Assembly: GCA_003339415.1 (NCBI GenBank)
Contig: PDHQ01000058.1
Location: 1-64,000 of the forward strand
Direction of reading: 5' to 3'
DNA length: 64,000 nt
From: Ophiocordyceps camponoti-saundersi (nom. inval.)
Taxonomy: Eukaryota; Ascomycota; Sordariomycetes; Hypocreales; Ophiocordycipitaceae
Shown: piece by piece, positions 24,395 through 64,000 of the stretch
Layout: every line of letters begins with the position of its first letter
Position numbering within the stretch: the first letter of the stretch is position 1
The notes under the pieces: generated by a model
Told to the model about the DNA's origin: nothing
The model's input: only the letters and a program-made list of their open reading frames with translations
Databases searched by the model: none
Translations under genes and position numbers: made by a program

Positions 24395-26019
24395 CTACAG
24401 CGCATCCGCCTTGGTCAGGACACTCAAGACGCCCCCGACCAGATGCAAGCTGCCCGTCACGTAGGCCACCGCCTTCTCCGTCCTCCCGACCCGTCTCGTG
24501 AAGTCAATCGCCTCGTCAATTGACGGCGAGACGACAACTTGGGCTTCCGGATCCAATTCGGACCACCTTTCGCCCAAGCGCCGCTGCACCGTCAGCTGGC
24601 CGATGGCGTCGCCGTCGACTTGACGGTTGACGAGGTCTCGTCGGCTTTGTTGGCCCCGAACCTCGTTAGTGCAGAAGATTGCGTAGTCAAAGCAGGGCTT
24701 GCCTGCCGCCCGACCTTGGCTTGCGGCCGCGTGTATGGAATCGAGAAAGTTGACGGCTTCCGACCGGCTCTGCTGATTAAATATGATGATTCTCGGGTCG
24801 GAGCTTGCGGCGGCTACTGTCAGCAGCTGTCGCCGCCCGGACGACATCCGGTCACGCTGAGGGGAAAACGCACCTATTGGCTGTCTCATCAGCGAACCAG
24901 GCCGAAGACACTTTCAGGCTGTCTGCAGAGTGTGCACCGTCGATATACCACGTCACCTCATCCTCGACCATGACCTCACATCGCCCGCGGAGCACCATCT
25001 GCTCCAGCCCATCAATGAACTCTGGCGTCAGCGTTGTGCCAGACGGCAGAAATATTTGCAGGTTGTCGAGCGCCTGCTCCGCGAGGGCAGTCGCTAGCGT
25101 TGCGTTCTTTCGTTGAAACTCTGTATCTGGCTTGATGCATACGTCGTCCAGCCGGCGGATATCGACATCGTTGAGCTCTTGAAACTTGGCTCCCGTCTCT
25201 ATCGCACGCTTTCGCAGCACATCAGCGGCTTCCGGCGCTTGAGGGACGGTGAAGGCCGGCCTGCCATTTTTCATGATGCCGGCTTTATGCCACGCGATCT
25301 TATCCAAGGTGTTGCCAAGGGTAAGGGTGTGATCGATGCCGATGGTGGTGATGCCGCACGCTACCGGGCTATCAATCACGTTTGTCGCATCGTATGCACC
25401 CCCTATGCCGGTCTCGTAAACAGCCACGTCGACCTTCTCGCTCAAGAAGACGTGCCAGCTCATGAGAGTCAGAAAGCGGCTGTAGATGGGTCGTGACCCT
25501 AAAGGCACTAGATCGGCCCCTTCCGCTGACGATCCCAGTCGATCCCAAACTTGAAACAGGAACTTGGCGAAAAGCTCCTCCGAAATGGGCTTCGAGTCAA
25601 TGCGGATGCGCTCGCGAACGGCGACGAGATGAGGCGAAGTAAATAGACCCACTTTCTTGGGTATGCCTCGTTTTCGCCGATACTGGTCGAGAATGGAGTT
25701 GACATAGGCGCACGTACTGCCCTTGCCCTTGGTGCCAGCGACGTGGATGATGTTGAGCTTTGCTAGATCCGCCGGCTTTTTGTTTATTTCCCCATCTCGT
25801 CAGTCAATGCCTGAGGTCTGTAGGGGGATGGAGAAGGGGGGGGGGGGGGGGGGGGGGGGAGGGGGGGGGAAGGCCCAAAACCCTCGTCCCCAACCCGTCG
25901 GCGGGAACCGCGCGTTTCTGTTCTCCCTCTCCCTAGAGCCCCCCTCGCTTCCCTCCCNNNNNNNNNNTGTTTTGCTGTCGGCTCGTGTGGTGGTGTTTGT
26001 GCGGCCGCGGGCGGGGGGT

Positions 26020-26071
<52 letters not shown>

Positions 26072-36471: not shown

Positions 36472-38199
36472 ATGGCCGATGCCGGTGACGATCTCAAGAT
36501 ACAGCAGCTCAGCAACTCTCTTCAACATTGGCTGACCTGGGACGCCGAGTACGAGGCTCTAAAGGAGGAGGTCGAGGCAGTCCCGGACAACCAGCCGGAG
36601 GCGTTGCACCGCATCCACAATAATTACGAGGGCGACCTTCTCCGTGATAGGGAGCTCGACGAAATTTTTGGGTTGCAGGATCCGCGGTCGAAACGGCAGA
36701 TCGTCAATATCTTGCAGCGGCGGATAGATTATGTGACGCAGAACCTCGAGACTTTGCGCAAGCAACTTTACGCCGAGCAAGCCGAGCGTGTCGAGGCAGA
36801 GGCACCCGCCGATGATGGCGAGACCATAACAGACGTCGTAGAGCAACTCGACGACGACGATAATGTTGTTTCATTTCGCCTAAGTCAATCGGGTGACGCA
36901 ATACCTGAGGTCTACGAGGCCCTAGAGAAGGCAGGTGTCGATGTCGTTGGAGGTGAAAAGCCAAATGGCACTTCGTCGCATTCAGATCCTCCAAGATCGC
37001 AACCGACATCACCACGCGCTTCTTCAGATTCACCATCAGTGCCCAAAGAAAATGCGACGGCCTCACAAGACGCGCTTCCTCAACCGCCGACCGAAATATC
37101 AAATTCACCTTCAGCGCCCAAAGAAAATGCGACGACCTCACAAGACGCGCTCTCTCAACCGCCGACCGAAATGTCGCGAAGAGCCAGACGTGTCGATGAA
37201 ATCATGAACAGAGCAAAGCAGCAAGAAAGCGTCAGCAAACAGGATCCAATTCTACCCGACGACGAGGATTCGGAAGACGCGGAACTGCGGCGGGAGATGA
37301 TCCAGTATGGCATGCGTGACATTGGCGCCGTCGTTGCTGAACTCCAGTTAGAAGAAGGAGAAGAGTCCGACTTTGACGAAGACATGGATGATACAGAGGA
37401 CGATGCCGAGGATCGTTATGGACGCTCCACTGGTCGCCTCGTCGACGATAGCTATCGGCAACGCATGCTCGAACTGGAGAGGAAATATGGCCTCAAGTCA
37501 CGCTTCACACTCCCTGCTGACGGCGAAGACCAGCAGTCTGAAACCGAAGACGACGAGGGCATCGGTCGCATCAAGGTGAAACGACAAGTCTCACCCTCGG
37601 CCTCGAAAGCTCTGCCGCGCAAGTCGAGCATCAGGGACAAACAAAGCGACGCCAAGAAGGGCGTGCGGTTTGCGGAGAGCTTGGATGTCGCTCCAGACGA
37701 CGAGCCTGCCGCCTCTACGACGGCGAAGAAGGAAGAGTCTGTGGCGGACCCCCTCGGCGATGTCGTTGAGCGATCAAGTTCCGGTGACAGCATCAAGCCC
37801 ACTCCGAAACTGAAGGCGCCTCACAAGCCATCGTGGTTCAAACAGGCGCGAGAATTGGCTGCTTCGAGTGAAGCAGTGCCTCTGAGTCCCTTCGATGCCC
37901 CTTCTCGTTTCATGGACGAAGAAAACCAAGACGCACCTGCGTGGCCCGATGATACTATCATGGTAGAGCAGCTGGTCGAGAAAGACCCGAGCTCCAATCC
38001 CAGGCCGCCCGATGAGCTTGATGATTTTATGAGCAGCAGCACTGTAGCCGACGAGCACCAGCGACTGCGCAAACGATTCATCCAACGTCAAGGCGGCTTC
38101 CTCGAGAAAGACTCGTCGCCCGTTGAGTATATGGACGACCCCGAAGAGATGGCCGCGCCCGTTAGCCGGTTCAAAGCGGCGCGGCTGTCCCGCCGATAG
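36472..38199 (+). CDS. URI1: URI/Bud27-type unconventional prefoldin
   Basis: About 575 residues, one exon. The frame is open upstream of 36472 but has no ATG there; the first ATG (MADAGDDLKIQQL) is used. The N-terminal 120 residues form the alpha-prefoldin-like coiled coil (HWLTWDAEYEALKEEVE, then a second helix QNLETLRKQL). A long acidic, Ser/Pro-rich region follows with the block MSRRARRVDEIMNRAKQQE and a very acidic run (EEGEESDFDEDMDD), which correspond to the RPB5-binding part of the family. The C-terminus (VSRFKAARL) fits the DUF3835 region. It acts as a cytoplasmic assembly factor for RNA polymerases and translation in known relatives. A 75-base tandem duplication sits inside (see repeat). 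Confidence 0.85.
   Translation: MADAGDDLKIQQLSNSLQHWLTWDAEYEALKEEVEAVPDNQPEALHRIHNNYEGDLLRDRELDEIFGLQDPRSKRQIVNILQRRIDYVTQNLETLRKQLYAEQAERVEAEAPADDGETITDVVEQLDDDDNVVSFRLSQSGDAIPEVYEALEKAGVDVVGGEKPNGTSSHSDPPRSQPTSPRASSDSPSVPKENATASQDALPQPPTEISNSPSAPKENATTSQDALSQPPTEMSRRARRVDEIMNRAKQQESVSKQDPILPDDEDSEDAELRREMIQYGMRDIGAVVAELQLEEGEESDFDEDMDDTEDDAEDRYGRSTGRLVDDSYRQRMLELERKYGLKSRFTLPADGEDQQSETEDDEGIGRIKVKRQVSPSASKALPRKSSIRDKQSDAKKGVRFAESLDVAPDDEPAASTTAKKEESVADPLGDVVERSSSGDSIKPTPKLKAPHKPSWFKQARELAASSEAVPLSPFDAPSRFMDEENQDAPAWPDDTIMVEQLVEKDPSSNPRPPDELDDFMSSSTVADEHQRLRKRFIQRQGGFLEKDSSPVEYMDDPEEMAAPVSRFKAARLSRR
37027..37176 (+). repeat. 75-bp tandem duplication within the URI1 coding region
   Basis: Two adjacent 25-codon copies, beginning SPSVPKENATASQDAL and SPSAPKENATTSQDAL. 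They are nearly identical at DNA level, which indicates a recent in-frame duplication in the disordered linker. Confidence 0.9.
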
Positions 38200-38663
38200 T
38201 AGAGTTCTTCTTGCAGTGGTTATAACAATCGACTTACATACCTTGCCCAGGTGCCGGCTCAAGATGTAGGGTGCCACTGTTTCTCACCATGACGGCATGT
38301 CCGTGAAGCTATTGATGATAGCCATGTACCGGAACGCGCTACGTTTTCAAAAAACAATAACGACAGATGGGCTGCAGCTTCTCAGTCTGCTTCCCTTCAC
38401 GATGCGGTTCCGAGATTGATCGTTGCTGGAAAGGGCTTCTCTGACGCCAGGCGTTTGCGTCTGCAACATGATGGCCTCGGCGTTCTTTATATCCCTTTAC
38501 ATTTATGAACGAGTATCGGTTCAGGAGGATTCAAGTCTCTAGAGATTATGGGGGAAACCCTACGACCTTGTAAGTTTAGAAGTTTAGCATTTCCTTGCGG
38601 CTATCGAGCTGTCTGACAAGATCGATCCTGAGGTGGTGTAGCCTTGTAGGTAACCGGCAGAAG
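38200..38663. other. Intergenic spacer
   Basis: Not AT-rich and not RIP-like, in sharp contrast with the retrotransposon that follows. No gene. Confidence 0.6.
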
Positions 38664-38668
38664 ACTTC
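38664..38668 (+). repeat. Target-site duplication, left
   Basis: ACTTC directly before the left LTR, identical to 44616-44620. Confidence 0.9.
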
Positions 38669-38812
38669 TGTTAAGGGGGTCCACGTGACCAGCCCCGCCC
38701 GACCTCGCACACGACCTAGCCTAGCTATCCTAGCCTAGACCTAGCATACACATATAATACACATATATCAGTGCACCTACCCGATAGCCTATGCCTACCT
38801 TATATTACTATA
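38669..38812 (+). repeat. Left LTR of the Copia element
   Basis: 144 bp, begins TGTTAAGGGGG and ends ACTATA (the expected terminal CA probably mutated to TA). Contains CCTAGCCTAGCTATCCTAGC. Differs from the right LTR mainly by transitions. Confidence 0.92.
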
Positions 38813-38850
38813 GGTTATGAGCGCCTATTACACGCTTCTGCTACGCTAAA
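38813..38850 (+). other. Primer-binding site matching initiator tRNA-Met half molecule
   Basis: Begins GGTTATGAGC immediately after the left LTR. This is complementary to the anticodon stem-loop GCTCATAACC of fungal initiator tRNA-Met. The following bases (ACGCTTCTGCTACGCTA) resemble the complement of the rest of that tRNA's 5' half if RIP-type changes (C to T, G to A) are allowed. Priming by an internal tRNA fragment is established for Drosophila copia. The tRNA sequence used for comparison is from memory. Confidence 0.7.
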
Positions 38851-41800
38851 GTTTACGATACCTTTATTTTCCTACTTTTAGGCTTATTTAATTAATTCGG
38901 AGCGCTATAGTATAACGGAAAATTCTATATATAAAATAAAAACGAAGAAAATTATTTTATATTAATTTTAGTAGCGAAAAATTTAACTAGCTTTCTTAAT
39001 CTAGAGGTATAATATAAAATAATAAGAAAAAGCGTAAAATACGATAAATAAGAATAGATAATTATATTTTTATCTTTTAGTAATACGAAGCTTAAGGGTA
39101 TTATAAGCTATATTAAGTAATATAAATCTCTTATAGTAATAGCCCGAATTAATAAGGTAAAATTATTTATCTTTAATAATAAAGTTCTAACTTAACTTAT
39201 CGATAAAAACGAAGCTATTAAATATAACGATAAAATAAAAATTATTATAGGAATTATTTTATAGTCCTTTTCCGGTAAAGTTATTAGTAATATTACCCGG
39301 CTTAGCTAGGATAAAAATACTATAATATATAATATTTATCTTTTAGCTAAGAAATAAGCTAAAATATTAACGAAGATATAACCTCGATATATTTTTTAAT
39401 ATTAATATTAGCTTAAGCTAAAAGATAATATAATTAAAAATTAGAGAGCTTTTAAAAAGGACTTTTAAGGCCTTTAAAATTAGATTATTATAGATAAAGA
39501 TATAGGGGCTAATTTTAAAAAAATACTATATATCTACGCTTAGAAAGCTATTAATATTATCTAAACCCTATACCCCGTTATTACTAAGAAGTAAAATTAT
39601 AATATAAATAACCTTTCTAAGTTATCTTTTAATAATATTAATATATATATTTTATTATAAATTACTAATTTTAAAATAACCTGCGATTTATTAAGCGGAA
39701 AAGCTTTTTCCGTAACTTAAAGCTAACTTTAGAAAAAGAAGCTAAAAAATAAAGGTAACGGTAATAATAATAATAAGCTAAAGCTATTATTATCGAACTT
39801 AGAGATATATATTATACTTTATATACCGAAGCGTACGAATATAATAAATAAGATTATAACCTTTTTTTATTATAGCTATAACGTTTATCTAAGAGGTTAT
39901 ATTTACTTAAAGGAGTAATATTAAGTTCTTTACTCTAAGCTCCGGCTACTACCTATTCTTAGGTAATATAAGAATAGTAACGCGAGTTCCGTAAATAATA
40001 GCACGGATATAATATTAATAGGGAAAAGTACTATAGCTTATATTATTAATATTACCCTTAAAAGTTATAATAGCTTTATTTTATAAAACGCTATAGTTAT
40101 CGATATTAGCTATATTTTATACTTTTTTAATAATAAGGGATAGTTTAATTAATATAAAGAATTTAATAGCCCTTATTATCTTATAGTATTAAATAGTAAG
40201 CTTTTATTTTATTACGGTTAAGGTATTATTATAATTAACGCTTCTAATAACTATTCGATTATATTTAAAAAGGTATTTTATAGTATAAATATCTTAGTTA
40301 ATCTTATCTCCGCTAATTAGCTTAATCGTAAGGAAATCTATATTAATAGCGAAAATATACGCTTTTAATAATAAGGACGTACTATCTATTACCTCTCTTA
40401 GATAAGAGGCGTAGCTAATATTATAAGCGCTAAGGCTTAGAAGCCTCTTATAATAGCTACCTTACTTAAGATAAAATAGGAAGTTAACTTCGCCGTAATA
40501 TATTACCGCCTCGGGCACGTAAGTAAAGATAAGATTCTTAAAGCTTATTATAAGTTTAGCTTTATAATTAATAAGAAGAGTATCTTTAAGTTATTTTACT
40601 ACCGCGCGTGCTAACTTAAAAAAGTAAATACTATAATTAGTTAAAATCTTACTATTTTACTTATAAGTTTCCTATAATATATTTTCTAAGATTTTATTTA
40701 ATATTCTCTAATAGCTTATAAAAGTTATCGGTATATATTTTACGGAATCGATACTTATACTAACTATTACTAAGTTCTTTTTATAAAAACTTATAATAAA
40801 GCTTTTAAATAGCTTAAAGCGTAAAAATATAGCGTTAACGCTACTATTAGCGGCTACCGTATTTAAGTAATAAGCTTCGATAATATTTTTAAATTTATAT
40901 AATAAAAGATTAAAGCTTAGGCTACTAACGAGGGCTTTATCTTACGATTTTATACCTCTTATACTCTTACTTAGAATAGTAAAGCCGAGCGTGCTAGCTA
41001 TACCCTTATAGAAGCTATAAGAGCTATTTATATTAAGATAAAGCTACCCGAGAAGCTATAGCTATTTTTTATCGACTTTAGCGCCTATATATAGAATATA
41101 TTACTATTATTAACTAACCTAAAAAATTAGAGCCTTATTAAGATAATAATAGCCGCGATCCGCGTTCTATATAAATATTTAATTAAATATATATAATCGT
41201 AAAGTTATAAGGTATATATTATTATCCCTCCTTAATATAGGATTTAGAGCGCTAAAATAGCCCCTCGAGCTAAGGAAAGCCGCCTTATCGGTATAGAAGG
41301 CCTTTACGGGCATATTTATAAGATATATCTACCTAAAGAAAATAAGATTATTAAGGCTAAAGATATTAGGTTTTATAACTTAGCTAATTTAAAGCTCGAT
41401 TAAATAGTTAAATACGTTATAAAGCCTAAAATTAAAAAAGATTAAGAAAATTAACTTAATAAAAATAAATTCTTCCGATTCGGACCTAATAATATTAATA
41501 ATAATAATAATAATAACGATAATAATTATAATTATCTTAGCGATTAAGGCTTATAAGAGCCTACTAATAACCTTAAAGTAGGAAATATACCTAATTTAAG
41601 TAATAAAACCGTAAGCCCTTTTTAATTTAAAAAACTAGCTACGCCTCCGAATACGATATAATTCCTTACGCCTAATTAAACGCCTTATAGTACTTAATTT
41701 AATAATCTAGCTAATAAAAAAGCTCCTCCGTAAGCTAAGCTAAGGAATAAGGTTATAATACTTATAACTAATCGGAAAACCTATTCTATAATAGCCGCTA

Positions 41801-44142
41801 TAGCTAAATTTACTACTAATACCGTTTTTAAAAATATTAATAAAGAAGAGGTAAAGATTCCTAACTTTATCTTACTAATTAACGCTATATTTAACGTTCT
41901 AATACTATTAACGCCTAAAAGCTAGTAGGATATTTATAAATAATCTAATTATCTCTCCTATTAGCGCTTAGTAATAAATACGGAAATTAAAGCTTTATAT
42001 AATCGATAAACTTAAGATTTTATTAATTAACTTATTAGTAAGTAAGTTTTACCTAATAAATAGGTATTTATAATAAAAACGCCCGAGAATAAAGCTATAA
42101 TTATTAAGGCATATTAGTACGTAAAAGGGGATAAAGAAAAGGCTTTATACTCTATTAAGGACCTTTACGCCGCTATTATATATCTCTTTTCCGTTTAAGT
42201 ATTCCTATCGATTATAGCCTCCTAAGATTTTAAATAGTAATAATTTAATATCGTAAATATATTTATTAACGCTCCTTATTAGGAGGAATTTTTCGTTAAT
42301 TAGCTATATCTCTTCGAAAATAGAATAAATCGAGTATATAAGCTTAATCGAGCTTTATATAGCTTTAAGTTATCTCCTACGATATAGTTTATATATATAA
42401 GTAAGGCCCTTAAACGCTATAGATAATAATAACTTAAATCTAAGTTTTATATCTATACCTATCTTAAGGGATTTATTATACTCCTTTATATTAATAATAT
42501 TATAATTATAGCGCTTATAGCTATTTTTATAAATAAGGGAAAAGGTATTTTAAAAAAATTATAAGATTTATATAATTTAAGTAAACTTACTACCTTCTTA
42601 AGCTTATAATTTTATAAAAACCGTACTATATATATAATTTATATATATTAAGAGAAATATATTACTAAAATACTCGAATTATTCGGCAAAGGCGTTACGA
42701 ACGCCGTATAAATACCTTAGCCGCTTAAGGTTAAAATATCCGCTAATTAGAAAATATAGCCGCTTACGATACCTTAAAAAGAATAGCTAAAGAGGATAGG
42801 TAATATAAATTATCTCTCTAATAATATAAGGCCTAACTTAGCTTTTACGAATAGTAAATTATACGAAGGTAACTTTAATCTAACCGCCTTATACTTTTTT
42901 ATATAGAAGAATTTAATATAATACCTTTATAATATAAAAAGCTTAAGCTTTACGCTTAAAGGTGCTTATAACTTTTAAGATTTAAAACCTTATATTTTCG
43001 TAAATACCTTCTTTATAGATAATTTATATATAAGATATTCGATAGCCGGATATATCGTTTTCGTTAGTATAAGCTCCGTATATTAGAAATTAAAATAATA
43101 AACGCTTATAATACTATCGTTAATAAAGGCCGAATTTATTAATTTAACGCTTATAAGTATAAGCTTAATTTAGATAAATAAGATTCTTAAGAACTTAAAG
43201 CTACTATAATAATAAACGCTTATAATTATATTTACTAATAGCTTTAACGCTAAAGCTATCGCCCTTAATAAGTTTAAAATAGCCCGAATAAGGTATATTA
43301 ATATATAATATAAATAAGTTATTAATCGCGTAGAAAAGCGATTCTTTATAATCTAATATATTAGCATAGCCGATATAGTTATAGATAGCTTTATAAAGCC
43401 TTTATAGCGTCTCTAATATACTAAATTTATTTATATATTATATTTTTCTAACTTAAAAATTATAATCTTACCCTCTAAGGCTAAAAATAATATAAAGGGT
43501 AGCTTTTATACGCTATTAGATAAGCTTAAGGCGCCCGATAATAAAGCCCGCGATACCCTTATATTACCTAATAATAAAAGCACTAATATTAAATAAACTA
43601 ATCGATCGAATTAATAACCTAATAAATAATATAATATAAGATTTCTATTACTAAGGGATCCTATACTTAAAGGGGGGATCTTAAGGAAGAAGAGTAATTA
43701 ATATCGCGTTATAGCTATTAATTAAGATAGGATAGATTATTTTAAAAAGGTAGGTATCGATTAAGAGAGGATAGATAAGGTATATCGCGATTAACGCCTT
43801 AAAAAGGCCTATCGCGATTATTAACCTTACTATTAGCTTAGCTTCGTGCTACCGCTAATCTTACGATATATGCCCTTTAATACGCCTCTAAGCGATTATT
43901 TCGGCCTTAAAAATATTAATAGTAGGCACTTTTAAGCCCCTTACTATTAAATATATTAATTTATATAATTTTAGCGGTATTTCCTTACTAAGCGATACGA
44001 ATAACGATACCTCTCTCTATATATATATATAGCTATAAGGCTTATAGCTTATTTTTAGCCCCTTATAAGAAGAGGAATTTTCCTTTAAATTAGGCCTCTT
44101 AATACCCTTTATATAAGCGTTTTAACCCCTTTTAATAGCTTA

Positions 44143-44212
44143 ATTTAACCTTCTTAATAGCTTAATTTAACCTTCTTAATAGCTTAGATTAGCTTATTTA
44201 AGGCCTTTTAAG
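44143..44212 (+). repeat. Short tandem repeats near the 3' end of the element
   Basis: About three head-to-tail copies of a 22-base unit containing AATAGCTTAATTTAACCTTC in the noncoding part before the right LTR. Confidence 0.75.
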
Positions 44213-48200: not shown

Positions 48201-51200
48201 ATGTTTCCTACAGCTAACAGTGCTTCGCTTCCGGCGCGTCGCAGTCGCAAATCCTTAGGCGCAAGCTCGGATGTGCGAAACACAATGGACCTTGAGAGCT
48301 TAACGCTTAACTTGGGCAGCTCCCGAGCTGCCAGTCGCAAATCCAGGAGCAAGAGCATGGGCCCCGGCGGGCTGGAAGCTCTGAAGCAGATTAATGGGAA
48401 TCGACGCGCGGTATGAGCATAAATCTCATAGCTTCGAATCGCTATTGACCATGTTGCAGTCTTTGGCGGCCCCCGTGAAGCTTCCACGATCCATCCTCAA
48501 GCCCACCATACCCTCTCTTCCCAAGAATCTCCCCTTGAAGAACGGCAAGAATAAAGCGAAGCAAAACAGCCCGGATAGCCAAGATTCTTCTCGTTCCTTG
48601 AACTCGTCCAGCGACGAAGATCCCACCGCATCCAGGGCTGCCGATCGCACCGAAGAGGAAAAGCAAGCCGACACAAAGGAGAGGGAAGAGCGTGAGAGGC
48701 GCGATGCTCGCCGCAAGTCGCTCGCCAATCGGAGAGTGTCCTTTGCGGCCGAAGCGACGCTTCATACCTTTCATGAAATCGAATACCTGCAGGATTCGAC
48801 GACATCCACAGATTCGACCCGAAGAGCCTCGTCCGTTGCAAATAAAACCCCCAGCAGGCCTGCCGCCGCAGATGGCCGGGAGGACGCGCCTATAATCAAG
48901 ACGGACAGCACAGCAGGCTCTCCGGAAAAGCAGTCAGACTCGAATCAACAGCGCCGGCGGCGCAGGAGCTCCGGAATGCAACCTGTGAACTCGAGTGGCC
49001 CAGACGATGATACTGTGGCATCAACTGCTTATAGCTCCGACTCTGAGCCTGCAGACATCGTTGAGGAAATTGGAGAAGAAGACGAAGAAGAAGAGCCATC
49101 TGGAAGCGACTCAGACGACGGGACTATGATGACCATCGATACAGAAGAAGTGACTGGTGTCTCGGTCGCCTCAGACCGATCGACCGCTACTGACGATGAC
49201 TCGACTCTGGACGAGGCGCTAAGAATTGCGGCGCGCAGGGCGGGGACGCAAAACATGGAGACTGGCAACGGCGATGAGGAAGATGACGATGGAGAGGAGG
49301 TTATCCCGTCGTTTGGTTGGGTGAAGAAGACTGTTCAGCCAGTCGACGAGCCAAAGGCGACCCAGAGTGCGGATGAGCCCAAACCTGATGGCGATGCAGA
49401 TGTCGACATCGAGATGGACGTGGACATGGACACGGACATGGACATGGAAATGGACATGGACGTGACGCAAGCCGTCGGGCGGATCTTGAAGCCTACTACC
49501 GAACCAGAGACGGATCTCCTTGGCGACATGTCGATGGAAGTTACTCAAGCCCTCGGAGGTATTCTGTCGCACAACAACGCACCTCGATTCTCGAACCATC
49601 AAGGGCAGGTCGAGTCAGAGGAGGCTACCATGGAGTTTACGACCGCACTCGGCGGGATACATACCGTCCAGACAGAGGACCCGGACGACGTGCTGGACGA
49701 CGAAGATATGTCGATGGAGCTGACGGCCGTTGTCGGTAAAGTTCTCTCCCGTTCTAGGGATGAGCATGCAGCAACGGGACAAGCGAATGAAGCATCTCAA
49801 ACAGATGAACCGGGCTTCAAGGAACCACTCACGGATGCCACATCCGGCATGGGCAAGTTGGTTGATGCTGCCACATCCGATGACGAGGCCCGAGGAGACG
49901 CAACCGTAGACATGGACATGACGGCTGCCCTTGGAGGCATCATGGAGAGCGATGAGGAGAAGCAACGGGATGTCAACAAGCGCATCATGGAAGAGGAAGT
50001 CAACAGGCCCAACGACGCGGCGCAGGCTATTGTCGAGGCTGTGGCACGATCACCGACGCGGAGGGCAGTTGGAGACTCCCAGGAGGTTGAAAAGGCGCCA
50101 GCGGAGAGTCCTGGACTGTCAGCCTTCAGAGGAAAAGGTCTGCGACGCAGCACACAGAGACGGGCATCGGTCACCCCGAAACGTGATGTTCGATCGCGGA
50201 CGCCATCTCCCGTCAAGACTGCGACGCCATCTCCCGCCAAGACTGTGGCGCCGTCTCCCGCCAGGGCTGCGGCGTCGTCTATCGTCAAGGCTGCGGCGTC
50301 GTCTTCCGTCAAGCCTGCGACGCCAACTCCTGTCAAGACCGCGACACCGCAACGACGACCAGCTTCAAGCCCCAAAAAGCAGGTACAGAGGTCCGCTTCG
50401 TCGCCTACGAGACGCATACTCGAGAGGTCAACGAAGACGCCCTCGCCCGCCAAGGCTACTCGAGACATCTTCCGCAACGACCCGCAGACGGGCGACAGAA
50501 CACCACATGTGGTCTTGACGCCCCCTCATCGGGCGCTCTCTGGTCTGGGCATCGATCGACCTGGCCTGGGATCTCCCAAAGTTTCTGCACTATGCAATCG
50601 CCGCGGTTCCATCGGCGAGTCAGCATCCGAATTCGTCCTAGGCAAGCGAACAGTGGCCTTTGAAGAGCCGAAGAAGATTGAGGAGGAGGTCGACAAGATG
50701 CGACAGGAGGAGAAGGATAGAGAAGACCCAATCAAGATTCTCGAGCGCGAAGCCGACGGATCGCAAGAAGATAAGGATGCGACGCTTAACCTCCGTGAGA
50801 TGATCAACAGCTTAAGCCCGAAGTGGAAGCCGTTGAGAGGCCGCAAGAGCCTGCATGTCGGCAGTGCCAAGGGCCTCCTGGGCAAGCGCCCTGCTGAGCT
50901 GGACGAGGACGAACAAGGTGAAGATGACGACGGGGTGAAGAGGCTTAAGGGACACCAGAGCAGCCCCGTGAAGAACGTCTTGCTCGAACAACCAGATGTC
51001 GGTCGTCTGACGAGATCGGCGCGAAGAAGCCTCGAACAGCAGGCGAAGATTAACACGACACCCTCACTATCGTCGCCAGTCAAGAAGCCGACGCGTCGGA
51101 CCTCGGAGCGACTGGAAGACTTGGAAAACAAGCAGACAGTGGACGAGATTAAGCTGGATGAGGCCGATCATGGGCAAGAAGTCGAAGAGGACAGGATTCA

Positions 51201-52661
51201 TTTGCAGGACTTTCTCAACATGATCTCAATTCGCTTCATGGAGCTGAACACAACCAAACGTCGCCACACGATGGCACCTGGAGGCGGAGCCGACGGAAGC
51301 ACGACCGAAGGACAAGACGGTCTGACTCTGGAGCGCTGCGTGGTAGCCGGCGCTTGCACGGTGCCCATGCTCGAACTATACCAGCATTCGTGTCGGGAGC
51401 TGAAGAAGTACATTTCAGAGGGAAGAAAGATGGTCAAGGAAATTGAAAAGGAGACGCTGGAGGAGAATCCACCGCTGTTCCGCGAGTACATGTCTGCGAG
51501 CCCGGATGTCAAGGCACTCATGGATCACCAGTTCAAGAACGTCAAGACGCACGCCCGGCTTCTCAGCAAAGCCATGTGGTACGAATGGCGGATGAAGCTG
51601 CAGGAGGGTCTCAAGGAAGGACTCGTCAGTGTCGGCGAGGGGATGGACAAGGACGACAGAGTGCTGAGGGAGCAGCAAGACGTGGTGGCATCTGTCCTGC
51701 CCGGAGCCGTGGCGCGCTACGAGTCTCTAAAGGAGGAAAGCAGCAGGCTGCAAGACGCCGCTCGAGAACTGGCCGACTGTGATGCGGACGAGCTCGCGTC
51801 GGCACGAGAGGAATTGGTGAACCTGGACGCGGACGTGGCGGCCAAGAAGCAGCAGATTGCCGAGCTTCGGCGACAACTTGAGGACTCGTCTGCTCAAGTG
51901 CAGGAGTTGACGTCGAGGAAGGCGGAATGCCTGCAAGCGATGGAGGCTTGCGACAGGACGAGGGAGAAATATCGCGGCTGGAGCAGCAGAGAGGTGAAGG
52001 CGCTCAAAGGTAAGTTGTGTATTAATGATCTAATAGCAAGAGGACTAGCTAACATGAATTTGGGGGGACAGCACGCGTCGAAGCTATGGAGAAGAAGCAC
52101 GGCTGGGCCATTTCAGGACTCTCCGGAAGCAGTCTTTTGATGACGTACCGGCGAGAACTGGAGTTGTTGATCGACGTCGGCTCGCTGCGAGCGGTTGACG
52201 TGAGGCTCGCCCGGCAGCCACAGCAGACCAAGGAGTTTATGCTGCATTGCATCCGCGAGCAATTGAAGAGCCAAGACCAGCTTTCGGAGCTTCTACGAAC
52301 GGTGGGAAAGGGATGGGACCAGGCACGGATGATCACACGGCAGGTCAACCGGGTCAACATGGTGTTCCCCACGGCCATGACCAAGACGTCGGACTCGAGC
52401 ATCTCGGTGACGAGCAAGCTGCTGCTGGTGCCCCTAAAGACGCTCATCGAGATTCAGCTGAGGCTGGATGGCGGCTGTGGCGGAGTGGCTGTCTCGGTCG
52501 AGGCTCGGGTCGTCTACGGAGAGCCCTTTAACGTGGGCAAGATGGGGGAATTCCTGGCTGCGAGGATTGGCGATAGGGTAGGCGGCGAGGAGGACTGGAG
52601 CGATGCTCTGTTGGAGCTGCAGAGGAGACTGATTGCGAAGGGGAGCAAGATGAAGGCGTGA
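48201..52661 (+). CDS. SPC7: Kinetochore scaffold Spc7 (KNL1)
   Basis: KMN-network protein that binds PP1 and, when its MELT repeats are phosphorylated, the Bub checkpoint proteins. Exons 48201-48410, 48460-52009 and 52072-52661; introns of 49 and 62 bases. About 1449 residues. PP1 docking motifs are visible: SILK (81-84) and RVSF (162-165). Five MELT-like repeats sit between about 49445 and 49945, each ending in a GGI/GKV-type tail (DMSMEVTQALGGIL, DMSMELTAVVGKVL, TMEFTTALGGI, VDMDMTAALGGI and a Met/Asp-rich one). A basic Thr/Pro/Ala repeat region follows (50200-50350). The C-terminal third is the conserved Spc7 coiled coil and RWD domain (HGWAISGLSGSSLLMTYRRE). Complete and intact. Confidence 0.95.
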
Positions 52662-57706: not shown

Positions 57707-57951
57707 AAGGAGCCTCCCCCGGACCCGGACCCGGAATGGTGGCACAGAAGAAGTGGTTGGGAGGTGAGTTTTTTTCTTGTGATTTTCCTCTGGGGACGAG
57801 ACTTTTGAGTTGCTGACGAGTTTGCATCTTACAGAATCGCCTCATGTTCGATCTCCCCAGTGAGCCAGGCGAACCCGGACCATTCAAGACTGCACGACAG
57901 AAACTGCGCGAACATGACTTGATTTTTTTTCTTTGTCTTGTTCATCGATGA
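57707..57951 (+). CDS. Possible C-terminal extension of the membrane protein
   Basis: In frame with the preceding gene after its TGA. Segment 57707-57763 (rich in Pro/Asp, then EWWHRRSGWE) is followed by a consensus 71-base intron (57764-57834) and segment 57835-57951 (begins NRLMFDLPSEPGEPGPF). A consensus intron with the same frame on both sides would be unusual in random sequence. It could be reached by splicing out 57632-57709 or by stop readthrough, or it could be a relic left after a nonsense mutation. Confidence 0.35.
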
Positions 57952-58779
57952 CGACGACCGATGAGAGAGAGAGAGTGTGCTTTTTGATTGTCTTTACCAA
58001 GCACGCATGGACGACTCTCTTCCTTTTTCTTCTTGTTCTTTTGGCTTTCCCTCTTTTTTTTTCCCTTCTCTTTTCTTGGCAGAAGATGATGATGATGACG
58101 ACGACGACGATTCTCTTCGCGACTCATTTCGTTCATTCTTTCACGAGTCACGTCACAGTTGTCCTTCACATGGGAATTTCAGCCAGCCCGGTCGTACGAA
58201 GCAGATTTCATGCCCGGATTGATCGTCTCCCCCTTCATGATACAGACCAGACACTTTTTTTTTTGACGCAGCAGATGGCCAATTTTTCTTCTGACGACAG
58301 ACTCTATCAAGCAATTCGATGAGCGAGTCTTGTCCAGGCCTTTGCTCTGTCTGGTGGGAGACGCGGGTAAGTGCAGCGCAGCAATATTGATATCCGGTTC
58401 CAGCTCCTCGTCCTAGAGGATTGTCCTTCCTTCCTTTCTTCACAAACAGACACGATCTTGCAGTTGACTACAGAGAAACAACGGGACGGACTCGATTCAT
58501 TCTTTACACACGAGTCTCTCTCTGGTCAAACTCAGTCAGAAAGCGAAAAGGACGAGGGAAAGCTGGTGCCAGGATTCTTTGGGGATTTTTTCGACTCGGA
58601 TCCAGGCCTTTGGACTCGTCGTCCTCGTTCAGCATTCAGATCAAACCACATTCAGCAGACAACTACCGCACGCATGAGGAGAATGGCAGACTCATCATAT
58701 AAACCAATCAAGAGTCTCGCCTGCGATTGCGAATTCCTGCTTTGCATCTCGAACGAGGACAGACCTAGCCAGGTCATGG
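57952..58779. other. Noncoding leader of the hairpin-rich region
   Basis: CT-rich and AG-rich alternating segments with a GAT/GAC run at 58084-58112. I see no gene. It grades into the inverted-repeat region. Confidence 0.5.
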
Positions 58780-60470
58780 ACATGCGGCAAATGGCCTCTC
58801 TATCTCTCTCCCCTTTCTTCTTCTTCTTTGGCCTGACACAACTCAATCGTCACGCTCAACAAGGGAGAGAGAGAAGCCGAGCTCTTTCGACTGGACCGAC
58901 GCCAGGGGAATCTTTTTTTTTTTTCGACAATTCCGACGGAGAAGCTTGACTTTCATTTCCAACTTCTGCTCTCCGTCGATGCAAAAACTTAATCTACAAA
59001 CAAAAACTCGGGGCTTGTCACCCCTTCCAACCCCCCTTTGGCCGGTCACAAACACACACACATTTCAGTCATCCAGACACTCTGGGGAGATGGTCTCTCT
59101 CCCCACGCGCATGAGGAGGCGCTCACAATCAACAGTCTGGAAAGAGCTCACTTTCTACTCGGCGACAGGGGGGATTTCGACGGGCAAGACTCAACAAACA
59201 AACTCTTTTCTTCTGCCCGTCGACTGCCTTCGTCTTGGCTCCTCCCTGTCGCCGGCCGCACATCGAGTCACATTAACACACACACAGATCTGAGGGGGGG
59301 GGAAGGGAGGTCCTATTTTCGAGAGGACTATTATAAGCATTGGCCTCTCTTCCCTCCCCCCTTTTCTTGCGTCAGAGGAGGACGCATCATTGAGACTTTT
59401 TACCTTGAGCGGTGGGGGAGGATCTGACTGACGGGGAAGCCTGAACAACAAAGTTCCAAACCAAACCAAACAACTCTTTGGCTTCCTCGTCAGCGATTCA
59501 ACTTCATTCACAACTTGTTGCCAGGCATGTCTGTCGCCAAACAAAACACTCGGTTCACACATCAGGGGGGGAGAGAGGTCAACTTCTTCTTTCAGCCATC
59601 TTTTCAAACGGCTACGACCTTCTCTCCCGTTTGCGCTTGAGGAGGCGCATTTTTTTTCCCTGACCGATTGGCGACAGACAGACCGACGGGGGAGTCGGAC
59701 ATGAATTTTGAGAGGACTTCTTCCGACTTCCCCGTCGGTCACCAAACGCAAACCACAACGCCTTTGCCTGGCAACCCCCCACCGCCAAAAACACAGGACT
59801 GGTCTCAACTTAGGGGGAGAGGGCTCAACTTCATTTTCAGCCATCTTTCAACGGCAACAGCCTCTCTCCCCCCATGCGCTTGAGGAGGCGCATTTCTTGG
59901 TCGATCGGCGACAGACCGACGGGGGAGTCTGACACGAAACTGAGAGGACTTCTTCGACTTCCCCGTCGGTTATCAAACTCAAATCACACACATTGCCTGG
60001 CACCCCTGTCATCGAACGCACAATTTCATCACACACTCACTGGGGGGGAGAGAGGCCAACTCTTTAAGCCATTCTTCAACGGCTATGGTCTTCTTCTCTC
60101 CCCCTCTCTTGCGCTTGAGGAGGCGCATCATCAGTCGTTCGATGGCGGGGGGACTCGACAGAGGGGGGAAGTTCGACACTGACTTGAGAGGACTCCATCG
60201 ACTTCCCCCTTCGCTCGACAAACTGATTCACATCTTTGCCAGGCATCACTGTCGCCGATCGCACCTTGATTCGATCATCGGGGGGGAGGGAGGCCGCATT
60301 CTTTTTTTTGCCATCTTTCAACGGCAGCGGCCTTCGCTTCCCCCCAGCGCTTGAGGAAGCGCCATCAACATGAGACGGGAAACTTGATCGGCAGCAGGGA
60401 ACTCGACCGAAAGGGGAAGTCTGACAACTGCAAAAAGGACTCTTCAGCTTTCCCCGGTCATCATTCTTCT
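58780..60470. repeat. Tandem hairpin array, period about 245 bp
   Basis: Six or so diverged units, each with three inverted repeats. (a) GGGGGAGAG-type / CTCTCTCCCCC-type arms, e.g. 59813-59825 with 59859-59872. (b) A compact GCGC-(TTGAGGAG)-GCGC hairpin at 59107, 59369, 59633, 59874, 60111 and 60347. (c) A longer stem around a conserved GAGAGGACT-rich loop: 59177-59186/59214-59223, 59428-59441/59480-59493, 59682-59699/59724-59741 (17 of 18 paired), 59915-59929/59956-59970, 60164-60176/60198-60209. Spacing of equivalent stems is 233-264 bases. No protein frame is conserved between units. Confidence 0.85.
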
Positions 60471-60543
60471 TTACATGGCATCTTCCCTGCTGCCGACCCG
60501 ACTCTTTGGACTTGAGCCTTTCAAAACATCGGCATCTCGTTCA

Positions 60544-61097
60544 ACCCGGCGACGAGGGGACGACTATTGGGCGGGAGACGACTTTGATTCGAATCCGACA
60601 GTCTCCTGCCCCTCGTCCAAAAGGCAAACATCTCTTCGCCTTACATAGCCCTCGTCGCCGGGTAAAATTGCCATCAAACAAAGCTCATTTCGGAGAGGAA
60701 AAGAGGGCTCTCCTTCATCTGAGCAGGCGACGGTAGGGGGTAAGAAGCTTGAACGACTCACTGACGGGAGGCATCTTAACGCAAAGCATGCCAGCCTCCC
60801 ATACAAAACAGTCCCGGAGTCAATTTCCCCCCTACCGTCGCCACTTCGACAAGCTTTGGTCTTCAAACAAATTTCACGACCAATCAACATCTTGTGTCTA
60901 CATCGGCGGCGAGGTTGAGCAAAACGAATAAACAAAAATCACCTTCAGTTCAAACCTCGTCGCCGGTTTTCTTCTATTTTTGCCCAAAGAGTTTCCATTC
61001 GTTCTTTAGAAACTCGGAATTTTCTTTCTCAACACCTCGATCGACGGCAGGGAAACAAGTAAACTGTTTCATCATCGTTCTTTCTCCCTGCCGTCGA
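60544..61097. repeat. Series of long nested inverted repeats
   Basis: Perfect or near-perfect arms: ACCCGGCGACGAGGG 60544-60558 with 60649-60663 (15/15), enclosing GGGCGGGAGAC 60569-60579 with 60601-60611 (10/11) and a GATTCGAATC palindrome; GGCGACGGTAGGGGG 60726-60740 with 60828-60842 (15/15), enclosing GGGAGGC 60766-60772 with 60794-60800; 60904-60918 with 60950-60965 (one mismatch, one bulge); TCGACGGCAGGGA 61041-61053 with 61085-61097 (13/13). Many arms share a GACGG core. Confidence 0.88.
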
Positions 61098-61439
61098 CTC
61101 TTTTCTTGGTCTTCCCTGACATTCATCGCCTACTTCATTCTTTTCTTGGCTGCCACACTTCATCGGCACATTGGCGAATTGACCAGCTGCGAAAAAGAGC
61201 CCTGACGACAACTGCCCTTACGTCTTTGGGTCGAGGTTGTCTTCTTCTTTGACGGAGAGAGAATTCACTTTTTTTTTGCTGCAGGCCTGTTCTTTCGACT
61301 TTTCAGGTTCCCTCTTTGAATCAAATGATCATCACCTGGATGGGAGAAATAGACACAAACAGTGCCTGTGGCGACAATCTTCTTCTTTTCTTTTGTCTTT
61401 GGTTTGGTATGGATGGATGAGGTTTTTTCAAGGGTCGGC

Positions 61440-63130
61440 AAAAATCGCTGGACCGGAACGGAGGAATTCAGTGAGGTCGACAAAAGATGTCAGACCGGAA
61501 AACAAGGGATTCAAGAAATGGTCGGCAAAACGACCAAGAGAGGTTTGTCCCCGACCAAGGCTGATGATGATCCATGACGGAAACTAGTCGACACAACTCA
61601 AGAAGCGATCCTCCCAGAGCAAGGTTCAACATCACACCGTTGGACGGGAAGGCATCAGTCGACGCAGCTCAAGAGCGGTTCCAACTCGATCAAGGCCGAT
61701 GAAGATGCCCGGCGGAACAAGGAAGCGATCCTCTCTCCCACAGCAAGGTTTCATCAAACAAAACCACGGGAGTGATCAACAAACAGCTGTTCCATTTCCA
61801 ATTTTTCAAGACCGGCATAACTTCTGGCGGGGGAAAGAATATAACAAACCGGGGAATTTGAGCTCGAAAAAATAGAGCTCTTTGTCTTCGTACCAAGGTC
61901 AACTTCATGAGTCGAAAGGGTTGAGCTCATGACAACAATTCAAGTCAGCTCCTTGTGTCAGAGCGAAAAATAAAGCAGGGAATCATGAAACGGCAACAAA
62001 CGAAAAAGCCATCAACGACCAGCGGGCACAACTCTTTGCCATAGCGGTCACAAACCTGCGCTCTGACAGCCCCTTCTCTTCTTTCAAGGCCGACACTTCT
62101 TCTGGCGGGAGGACTAAGCGATTCATCTTTTGCCGTTCTCCTTGTCCATGGCCGATTCTCATGAGCGGGAAGTGATCACCTCACAAAAAAAAAGATGGTG
62201 ATCTTCCTGGACCAAGGACGAGACAATCTTTAGGAGAGACCAGCTGATAAACACACAAAGAAAGGCGGCTCTCTTTCATCTTGGCCGATAAATTGGCGGG
62301 AGGACTTGGCGAATTAACTAGGCGGTTCTCCTCGACCAAGGCCAAGATTCATCAACTTGAGGATCATTCAAAATCACTTTGATCCTCTTTTTTTCATGGG
62401 AGCCCTGCCGACAAATCTCAAGAGGCGGCTCCTCTTTGATCATCAAGGCCAGCATTTCTGGCGGGAGGAACGAATCGCTACAACCTTTATGCGATCCTCC
62501 TCGACCAAGGTCAACATTCACAAACGGGAGGATCAGTCAACACAATTTAGACGGTCCTCCCTTCGACCAAAGTCGATACACATTCATTCTCAAGCACAAG
62601 AGGCCAGCCGACAACACTCGAATAGGCGGCTCTCTGCTCTCTTCAATCGAGCACATCTGGCCGGAGGACTCATCAACTCATTCAAGTTCGTCCTCTGCGA
62701 CCAAGCTCGACACTCATTCACACGGGGGACCAGCAAAAACTCAAGAACGGTTCTACCCCAATCTCATGCCGGCGACTGGCGGGACGAGCAATCGACATCA
62801 CTCAAGTCGTCGTCCTCGACCAAGGCCGACACATCTGGCGGGAGGACCATCGACACGATTCAAGAGGGTCCCTCCTCGACCAACTTTCGCGAGGAACGCA
62901 GCCGACACACTTCAAGAGGCCGTTCTCTCCTCATCAAGGCCGACACTCATCGACGAGAGGACCTGCCGACTAAACTTGCGCGGTCCTTCTCAGAGGCCAA
63001 CATCTGACGGCAGATTGTTCGACGCAACTCTTGCCAGCACCTGGTCACTCACGATTGGGAGAGGGTCATTGGCAAAATGCCGAGAGATCCTCTCCAGACA
63101 AGTCCGGCAGACGCGCAGGGAGGACTGACC
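61440..63130. repeat. Tandem hairpin array, period about 60 bp
   Basis: Degenerate units of the form GGCGGGAGGAC, about 20-25 variable bases, a G(G/A)TCCTCC-type complement, then CGACCAAGGYCGACA. The CGACCAAGG word or a close variant occurs at 61550, 62335, 62508, 62562, 62699, 62817 and 62878; with the related CAAGGCCGACA-type words at 62937 and 62996 the late spacing is 59-61 bases. Example stems: 62398-62404 with 62427-62433; 62526-62534 with 62553-62561; 62840-62848 with 62867-62875; 63059-63067 with 63086-63094. The earlier part (61.4-62.2 kb) is more degenerate. Confidence 0.75.
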
Positions 63131-64000
63131 CGACATCTTTCACACACGAAGAAAACAACTCGAGGAGTCCTACCCAGGCAAACAACAGCGCGTAGGGACA
63201 CTGTCTGTCGACCAAAACACAAAAGAGGTCATCACCAAGCTCAAGCTCAAGAAGAAGACCAGTCGACGCAACATCATCCACACAAACAGTCATTCAGACA
63301 AAGGAAACGATCAGGTGCAACAAATCATCACTTCAAAGTCGAGGGAGAGGGAAACAATATCCAATCGAGACGACGGGCCATCAAACCAAATCCTTGGCAT
63401 TCAAAGCAAATGAGCCATGGTCAACTACATCAAGAGGCAAAGCATAAACTGCAACCTCGGCCTCCAAAGCAAACAAGGCACGGTCAACCAACATCAAGAG
63501 TCAAGCATAAAACTGCTACCTCAAAAAACATGACCAAAAAAAATAACAAAGCCACGTCGTCCGATTCTCAAACTCCGAAAGGGCAAGCCAAAGAAACAAC
63601 AACAGCGACAGCATAAATTGCTTCATCGCTTTCGAGAGACTGGAACAACTGTCACGCCTAATAACACCAAGGGGGGTGGGGGGTGAATGGCAGCCGGTCT
63701 CTCAACAACCAAACTCACAGGCTTGAAAAACCCTCTTCAACTAGAAAACAAAACACCTTGGAATTGAGCTGCTGCTCGAACTCGACCGCGAACTCATTCT
63801 TGCTCTGAGATAGCCGCGCGTCTTGAGCAATGCAAGCCAGCTCTTCTAAAGGAAACCCTCTCCCTCGCAGTCAAAGCAAAGAAGAAAAGAAAACAAGCGA
63901 AGAAAAGAAAGAAGAAACGAAAGAAAAAAACCCACCCCCCGACTAACCAAAGAAACACACAGCGTTGAAGTGAAGACGACGAAACAGCGACATCAAGAGT
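63131..64000. other. Noncoding right end
   Basis: A-rich, CA/CAAG-rich sequence without recognisable genes. An open frame to 63616 (Lys/Gln/Thr/His-rich) reflects composition and the upstream repeat, not a known protein. Hairpins fade out here. Confidence 0.5.

Follow-up and report, generated by a model that had tools for sequence, protein, structure and literature searches.

A densely folded locus with arm-swapped tandem modules in Ophiocordyceps camponoti-saundersi, a candidate gene for a large noncoding RNA

The window analysed here is a stretch of 64,000 nucleotides from the zombie-ant fungus Ophiocordyceps camponoti-saundersi, in which a structured locus of about 4.5 kb is located between genes (Table 1). 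The Spc7 gene is a neighbour of this locus; Spc7 is 82, 81 and 69% identical in O. polyrhachis-furcata, O. camponoti-leonardi and O. camponoti-rufipedis, respectively. Both flanking genes, a 926-codon frame upstream and a beta-mannosidase gene downstream, reside on the + strand, as does the proposed RNA. The sequence TATAAA occurs at 58698, close to the start of the locus, which is a weak sign. A first-pass annotation of this DNA had described three adjoining arrays, A with units of about 245 bp, B with nested perfect inverted repeats of 15 bp and C with units of about 60 bp, and all three are present far above chance. The locus, in its view almost wholly hairpin repeats, is folded unevenly: neither the roughly 940 nt between 61.14 and 62.08 kb nor positions 62655-63000 inside array C (z -1.2) show significant folding. 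Beyond the limits it had set at 58780 and 63130, significant folding extends into 58601-59060 (z -3.3), 63000-63330 (z -5.2) and 63330-63700 (z -3.2). The outermost stem used for the locus is 63037-63046/63309-63318, and significant folding may reach about 63700.

Table 1. Positions of the predicted structural features within the 64-kb window.
Feature	Position	Strand	Remarks
Whole structured locus (proposed large RNA)	58601..63318	+	fold z, stem excess
Unit 1	59072..59262	+	hairpins I, II; self-closing S1-E1 (16 bp, 2 G-U) enclosing H4(1) and a small hairpin; z -5.4
Unit 2 hairpins I and II, ahead of module 1	59290..59386	+	held-out match, E 0.0012
Module 1 (units 2+3)	59405..59794	+	z -14.3
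Unit 4 hairpins I and II, separating modules 1 and 2	59809..59896	+	
Module 2 (units 4+5)	59892..60268	+	z -11.1
H4(4), 5' arm	59914-59929	+	
M4 of module 2	59993-60002	+	
Unit 6	60270..60502	+	hairpins I, II; self-closing domain S6-E6, 14 bp; z -6.5
Array B	60538..61102	+	more S/E-type stems
Array B stem t7	60538-60668	+	
Array B stem t8	60720-60846	+	
Array B stem t9	60902-60967	+	
Array B stem t10	61041-61097	+	
Stretch of little structure, with degenerate motifs resembling those of array C	61140..62084	+	z -1.2, -0.5, -1.7
Array C	62103..63180	+	16 hairpin units, ~60 nt each

The amount of structure clearly exceeds that of background sequence. Watson-Crick stems of at least 9 bp number 15 in 4.8 kb, whereas 40 background pieces from this genome average 1.85 such stems and none has more than 6. 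A second scan identified 17 strong helices, versus one to four in six dinucleotide shuffles and zero to ten in seven other regions of the contig, the piece at 5000 being the one with ten. Except for 61140-62084 and 62655-63000, the fold is more stable than that of dinucleotide shuffles across the locus. Its unpaired bases are rich in A and poor in G (0.385 and 0.097; control 0.288 and 0.171). The longest uninterrupted Watson-Crick run in the scans is 15 bp, or 19 bp if one G-U is allowed; near-perfect long duplex arms, as in a long hairpin RNA that acts as a source of siRNA, are absent, and the locus was not assigned to that class.

In array A, whose units measure ~240 bp, copies are spaced by 246, 231 and 238 (family D1) or 243 and 235 (family D3), and each unit begins with hairpins I and II, followed by the arms S and E which flank a GC-rich hairpin, H4. 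An initial model in which every unit closes on itself was rejected because cross-unit arms score higher: S2-E2, S3-E3, S4-E4 and S5-E5 reach 5.6, 6.0, 8.6 and 7.0, as compared to 10.0, 13.0, 13.0 and 14.8 for S2-E3, S3-E2, S4-E5 and S5-E4. The predicted pairing is nested (S1-E1, S2-E3, S3-E2, S4-E5, S5-E4, S6-E6) and ranks at the top of all 720 assignments, with a score of 79.6 versus 74.0 for the runner-up and no more than 50.2 for shuffled arms (60 trials). Accordingly, units 2+3 and 4+5 form two arm-swapped two-unit modules, an arrangement that is absent from the first-pass annotation. Their fold energies are -184 and -177 kcal/mol, respectively, and the z of both lies below the lowest value (-10.1) among 68 control windows. 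Module 1 comprises S2-E3 (10 bp), H4(2), M2-M3 (11 bp) and H4(3) (19 bp, one G-U), while E2-S3 (13 bp) encloses hairpins I and II of unit 3; module 2 comprises S4-E5 (13 bp), H4(4), M4-M5 (9 bp) and H4(5), with E4-S5 (16 bp, two G-U) enclosing hairpins I and II of unit 5. Two loops recur, UUGAGGAG in hairpin II and UGAGAGGACU in H4 of units 3-5. Plain alignment of the unit sequences misplaces the stems, and the units were therefore compared through shorter alignments with anchors; a model built from units 3-6 recovers the held-out units 1 and 2 (E 6e-4 and ~1e-3).

In array B, stems without interruption in the Watson-Crick pairing occur at 60388/60496 (14 bp), 60544/60663 (15 bp), 60726/60842 (15 bp) and 61041/61097 (13 bp). 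In array C, 11 of the 15 spacings fall between 57 and 66 bp, the remaining four being 50, 72, 100 and 101. The regular units share a bulged lower stem, TGG-CG-GGAGGAC, with TCAAG in the loop, and the single-base bulges are conserved among them. A model of array C recovered only two of 11 held-out units at E < 0.01.

According to the first-pass annotation, the arms differ between units and yet pair with their partners. This stands for the array B/P1 stems, for H4 and for array C, where own arms beat swapped ones, but not for hairpin I. Equally good pairing was reached by one of 720 permutations for array B/P1, by one to two of 720 for H4, and by 179 (Watson-Crick only) or 514 (G-U included) of 20000 for array C, while the own-arm preference of hairpin I is not significant (164 and 134 of 720). 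The test uses fixed 30-nt windows, as tight arm borders favour own pairing by construction; the change from tight borders to such windows weakened array C and abolished the significance of hairpin I. Among S/E-type stems both sides have changed in 10 of 16 pairs, a count reached by none of 500 shuffles. Alignment of the units by position yields few two-sided changes (3/25, 2/12 and 1/12 pairs), and shuffles matched 3/25 in 70 and 1/12 in 108 of 500 cases. Comparison of the units within the locus points to strong covariation for the S/E and H4 stems and modest covariation for array C, with none that is significant for hairpin I. A preference for one strand is also apparent. In a strand-neutral count of the stems, G-U and A-C occur at 16:5 versus 40:57 in shuffled units (Fisher p 0.004), and of 26 windows in the locus, 18 have the lower fold z on the + strand (p 0.019; controls 22/44). 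In raw energy, however, the - strand equals or undercuts the + strand in four cases (unit 1, module 1, unit 6 and t8), and t8 also has its lower z on the - strand.

Rfam 15, in which OLE, GOLLD and ROOL are represented as families, gave no match at gathering score across the whole window, in agreement with the annotation, whose author knew of no named fungal element of this kind. A description of this element was likewise not found in the openly licensed literature among the matches listed. Tandem Repeats Finder listed nothing between 58780 and 63130, indicating that the units are strongly diverged; a satellite was rejected as tandem units of high identity are absent. A second such locus was not found in the genome by sequence queries and three patterns (best candidates scored, very common words skipped), and a transposon or MITE was rejected because these queries and scans returned no dispersed copies. 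A dispersed transposon or satellite, which the annotation had named among the findings that would speak against its reading, was not encountered in these searches. Four template patterns of about 1.5 telomere repeats are absent from either strand of the locus, with a sole match at 72736 outside of it, and telomerase RNA was rejected. The 16-base pattern of hairpin II matched at least 120 stretches in viral contigs, with one match each among the matches listed, and these are taken as chance.

Alongside the pairing, the topology, the strand preference and the failure to find a second copy, which emerge directly from the computations, we infer that the locus is transcribed and that selection acts at the level of RNA. 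The annotation's reading, a structured noncoding RNA or a small-RNA precursor, is partly supported overall, in that structure is kept as the sequence drifts and one strand is favoured; the short stems weaken its precursor version. We consider it reasonably probable that the + strand of the locus encodes a single large noncoding RNA, some 4.5-4.7 kb long and composed of tandem modules. In such an RNA, some units would close on themselves while units 2+3 and 4+5 would swap arms into nested two-unit modules, and stem sequences would drift with pairing kept while the loops UUGAGGAG and UGAGAGGACU recur. It might be speculated that the molecule serves as a multivalent scaffold, its stems acting as rigid spacers that repeatedly offer identical loops to a binding partner or to one another. 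The UUGAG loops of array A could, for instance, pair with the CUCAA loops of array C. This complementarity looks overwhelming against shuffled loops, but among 48 relabellings that preserve loop conservation, hairpin II ranks first and H4 only third, and loop-loop contacts thus remain speculation.

Alternatively, the structured stretch might be an untranslated region acting in cis on the messenger of a neighbour. In the simplest case it would form the 3' end of the mRNA that carries the 926-codon frame, or else it would be the beta-mannosidase leader. The common orientation of both genes and an intron-like GTGAGT at 57764, 3' of the stop of the upstream frame, are in line with this. However, that stop is about 0.9 kb away from the locus, with unstructured sequence in between, more than 1 kb, partly purine-rich, lies between the locus and the beta-mannosidase frame, and a UTR of 4.6 kb is very long for a fungus, so that we regard this explanation as unlikely. 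Even less probable is a small-RNA precursor from whose hairpins Dicer would release milRNA or siRNA. Many hairpins do follow each other, and 17 of the 18 matches in a relaxed Rfam search of 58400-63700 are miRNA precursors; all 18 stay far below the gathering score (best E 0.011, 28.1 bits versus 95.5). Yet the stems are short, with the run lengths given above, and a Dicer substrate would presumably need no specific nested plan between units.

Covariation and own-arm preference, taken alone, are also compatible with a foldback satellite in which complementarity is kept by copying from arm to arm at the DNA level, RNA playing no part, as palindromic arms are able to correct each other. The G-U excess on one strand and the folding preference for the + strand argue against it, and a contrasting AT-rich case in the same genome (L022) folds alike on + and -. 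So do the conserved single-base bulges in the regular units of array C, the pairing of arms across units by a nested plan rather than with the nearest arm, and the lack of a second copy in the genome queries and patterns; we consider this origin very doubtful. A protein-coding gene with internal repeats, suggested by three open frames that overlap at 62.36-63.62 kb (216, 249 and 179 codons), is most improbable, as none of five frames of the locus has a Pfam match above cut-off (top sub-threshold match VASt, frame 63077-63616, E 0.0037, 18.1 bits versus 27), a homologue search with the 249-codon frame gave no match at E 1, in keeping with the earlier statement that no gene is supportable, and two overlapping frames open simultaneously point to an effect of composition.

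Ribosomes and viruses aside, the proposed RNA would, if transcribed, rank with the larger and more densely folded noncoding RNAs known to us, and it would clearly illustrate how tandem duplication, followed by arm exchange among units, can give rise to a giant RNA. It would also bear on the detection of such loci, since a tandem-repeat finder misses repeats as diverged as these and the fold emerges only with pairing between units allowed. As the modules measure about 390 nt, each structural claim is open to direct probing and deletion.

With respect to known systems, CsrB-type sponge RNAs resemble the locus in their repeated hairpins with a GGA-containing loop, but are bacterial and far shorter, and a partner protein of that kind is not known to us from fungi. 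Two studies describe the Drosophila lncRNAs roX1 and roX2 as carrying repeated stem-loops with a short repeated motif, as evolving rapidly in sequence and as depending in function on stem-loop number (PMC6301720, PMC4719309). The predicted long RNA would share the repeated stem-loops, the short recurring motif and the quick turnover; the parallel is one of anatomy, without a claim of common sequence, and nested arm exchange is the feature of array A. Another report indicates that kissing loops stabilise the complexes of GOLLD, ROOL and OLE (PMC12286853), with which the locus appears to share a large, dense multi-helix fold and, through its UUGAG and CUCAA loops, a possibility of kissing. Those RNAs are bacterial, whereas the present locus is fungal and has no Rfam match at gathering score. 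As a long shot, the bacterial ornate giant RNAs might have a eukaryotic equivalent here, a fungal RNA some 4.6 kb long and made of arm-swapped tandem modules, in which the array A loops lock onto those of array C within or between molecules and thereby assemble a large particle or scaffold based on RNA. Fungal screens for conserved structured RNAs, as far as portions of their reports convey, yielded RNAs that are likewise structured and noncoding, but as single motifs in introns, UTRs and intergenic regions (PMC8216456, PMC5640933); the words "tandem" and "Ophiocordyceps" are absent from the main texts of both. If the cell does make a large folded RNA from this locus, the molecule would be of an unusual kind.

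The excess of stems and of folding at the hairpin locus exceeds chance. In a 4.8-kb piece covering the locus, 15 Watson-Crick stems reach 9 bp or more and 5 reach 12 bp or more; in 40 background pieces from this genome the means are 1.85 (maximum 6) and 0.15 (maximum 3), respectively. A looser scan yielded 17 strong helices in the locus versus 1-4 in six shuffles; elsewhere in the window, the region at 5000 reaches 10. Fold energies, expressed as z against dinucleotide shuffles, averaged -2.39 (+ strand) and -1.23 (- strand) in 21 windows of 200 nt within the locus and -0.17 and -0.06 in 38 windows outside; with 180-nt windows and 60 shuffles, the means were -2.15 and -1.48 (n=26) versus 0.00 and -0.02 in controls (n=44). 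The abundance of hairpins described in the first-pass annotation is thus borne out, but its wording that the locus is made almost entirely of them is too strong, as 61.14-62.08 kb is weakly structured.

Each unit of array A comprises hairpin I, hairpin II, arm S, hairpin H4, motif M and arm E. Hairpin I has one G-rich and one C/U-rich arm, with an inner GCC..GGC hairpin in units 3-6; hairpin II is of the type GCGC-UUGAGGAG-GCGC and H4 of the type GACGGGGGAGUC, the H4 loop of units 3-5 containing UGAGAGGACU. Array B is a succession of additional S/E-type stems, and array C consists of 16 hairpins of about 60 nt each, the regular ones having in common UGG-CG-GGAGGAC as their lower stem, which is bulged by single bases on its 3' side; UCAAG is present in several of its loops.

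When the S and E arms of array A were scored all against all, the top assignment among the 720 possible was S1-E1, S2-E3, S3-E2, S4-E5, S5-E4, S6-E6, with a score of 79.6 (runner-up 74.0), or 74.4 (runner-up 67.6) with Watson-Crick pairs only; in 60 trials, shuffled arms averaged 41.9 and never scored above 50.2. In this plan all pairings nest without crossing, as they must within a single folding strand; arithmetically, 132 of the 720 assignments do so. The M motifs agree with it, M2-M3 pairing over 11 bp and M4-M5 over 9 bp, and self-pairing never exceeds 4 bp for any of them; the alternatives M2-M4 (9) and M3-M5 (10) are possible and would cross. Units 1 and t7, which are self-closing, have a separate small hairpin at the M position. 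From this pairing plan, units 2+3 and units 4+5 are therefore predicted to fold as modules. Module 1 (390 nt) has an MFE of -183.8 kcal/mol and a z of -14.3, module 2 (377 nt) -177.0 kcal/mol and -11.1 (60 shuffles each); the minus strands gave z values of -10.9 and -7.6, respectively. In the control set (68 windows of 385 nt, with 25 shuffles per window) no z fell below -10.1, the value for a window in the background stretch L022 (G000:C100:20001-30000), the second half of which has 23% GC. The strands of that window are alike (-10.1 and -8.8), as expected for AT-rich inverted repeats, and the second-lowest value, -6.3, again falls within L022.

A G-U pair on one strand is A-C on the opposite strand. 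With a strand-neutral stem finder, which treats every mismatch type alike, the locus (50 stems, 616 pairs) had 16 G-U, 5 A-C and 23 other, versus 40, 57 and 198 when the units were shuffled (six sets of 27-37 stems each; G-U versus A-C, Fisher p 0.004). The 13 named array A helices contain 164 Watson-Crick, 9 G-U, no A-C and 2 other pairs, a count that is biased because these helices were chosen from RNA folds. Of 26 locus windows, 18 had the lower z on the + strand (p 0.019), versus 22 of 44 controls; the same held for six of the seven array A/B pieces (the exception being t8) and, clearly, for three of four array C segments. By raw energy, the two strands were equal for t9-t10, and the - strand was as low or lower for unit 1, module 1, unit 6 and t8.

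In the S/E-type stems t1, t6, t7, t8, t9 and t10, 10 of 16 pairs had two-sided changes, amounting to 22 cells versus 7.4 in shuffles (reached by 0 of 500), bearing in mind that stems selected for pairing covary wherever they differ and that t7-t10 are grouped with S1/S6 on the basis of a common core, joined in t7 and t8 by a similar layout. The number of further pair types in these stems was unexceptional (59/500 shuffles); a hand count of two-sided changes in another register gave 11 of 17 columns, with three G-U and no A-C in 84 cells. In position-aligned units, two-sided changes occurred in 3 of 25 pairs of hairpins I and II (70/500 shuffles as high), 2 of 12 of H4 and 1 of 12 of array C (108/500 as high). 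Comparison of own and swapped arms in fixed windows gave 1/720 for array B/P1, 1-2/720 for H4 and, for array C, 179/20000 (Watson-Crick) or 514/20000 (with G-U). The earlier statement that arms differ between units yet still pair accordingly holds for these three, but not for hairpin I, where own-arm preference was not significant. Of the models built from subsets of units and searched in 204 kb, R2 (units 3-6) recovered the held-out units 1 and 2 (E 6.4e-4 and 1.2e-3; best off-locus match 0.2), and R1 (5 of the 16 array C units) found 2 of 11 held-out units below E 0.01 (5.8e-7 and 1.8e-3).

The 64-kb window opens a contig of 169,889 bases. Its Spc7 gene shares 98% identity with CP533_1336 of Ophiocordyceps camponoti-saundersi, and three further Ophiocordyceps give matches of 82%, 81% and 69%; the window therefore belongs to that fungus or to a nearly identical one. 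The hairpin locus is flanked by an orphan frame of 926 codons, without a Pfam match and with only a self-match among 7996 candidates scored, and by a beta-mannosidase gene followed by ATG14. An intron-like GTGAGT lies downstream of the orphan frame's stop. Immediately beyond the locus, a 63-bp repeat (1.9 copies) carries a GCC..CAAGA-GGC stretch similar to an array C loop; the surrounding segment folds with a z of -3.2. A strongly purine-rich tract separates the locus from the beta-mannosidase gene. Elsewhere, two G runs of 62-67 (93% matches) are unusual or an assembly artefact, and an AT-rich island (26-34% GC), which we take to resemble RIP, adjoins a 22-bp tandem repeat. Two opposed adjacent frames are presumably related folylpolyglutamate synthases; Pfam returned Mur_ligase_C alone for the first and no match for the second. 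A GAG-repeat tract, read as a proline run, lies inside a Peptidase_S8 (subtilase) frame.

Features of the hairpin locus and its surroundings (window numbering)
Feature	Position	Strand
G run	253-319	
Folylpolyglutamate synthase-like frame, first	22872-24320	+
Folylpolyglutamate synthase-like frame, second	24852-25652	-
G run	26009-26070	
Subtilase frame	28421-29839	-
GAG-repeat tract	29197-29282	
AT-rich island	38000-44000	
22-bp tandem repeat	44128-44186	
Spc7 gene	48394-52140	
Orphan frame, 926 codons	54926-57706	+
Hairpin locus	58601-63318 (as a proposed RNA)	+
Array A	59072-60502	
Module 1	59405-59794	
Module 2	59892-60268	
Array B	60.54-61.10 kb	
Array C	62103-63180	
Segment with z -3.2	63330-63700	
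63-bp repeat	63402-63522	
Purine-rich tract (120-700 of L003, a stretch beyond the window)	64120-64700	
Beta-mannosidase gene		+
ATG14		-

As to dispersal of the same sequence, raised in the first-pass annotation, no second copy of the locus was found in genome searches (45.69 Mb, 733 contigs) with queries and patterns. Scoring was limited to the best candidates and very common words were skipped; among the candidates scored, a 751-base query matched itself and its tandem neighbour, and a 5-kb query itself alone. All five genome occurrences of the hairpin II pattern are in the locus. CTCCTCGACCAAGG has three genome matches, one of them off-locus within a 221-codon open frame, and the H4-loop pattern likewise three, one off-locus with 3 mismatches.

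Most likely, a + strand RNA would form a chain of rigid modules displaying repeated loops, namely UUGAGGAG in hairpin II, UGAGAGGACU in H4 and UCAAG in array C. Since the loops recur and the stems change, a loop-binding partner would be the simplest explanation for loop conservation. Of 72 pairings of the hairpin II loop with array C loops, 20 show complementarity across 5 bases or more and 12 across 6 or more, and the count of 20 ranks first when the array C loops are relabelled in 48 ways. This lead is narrow (20 versus 18 for the next), and the H4 loop ranks third among 48; a contact between the loops of arrays A and C is therefore no more than possible. No Rfam family reached its gathering score for the locus, and none of the open-licence papers listed in literature searches describes such an element. 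Its closest parallels are the roX RNAs with their repeated stem-loops (PMC6301720, PMC4719309) and the bacterial ornate RNAs (PMC12286853).
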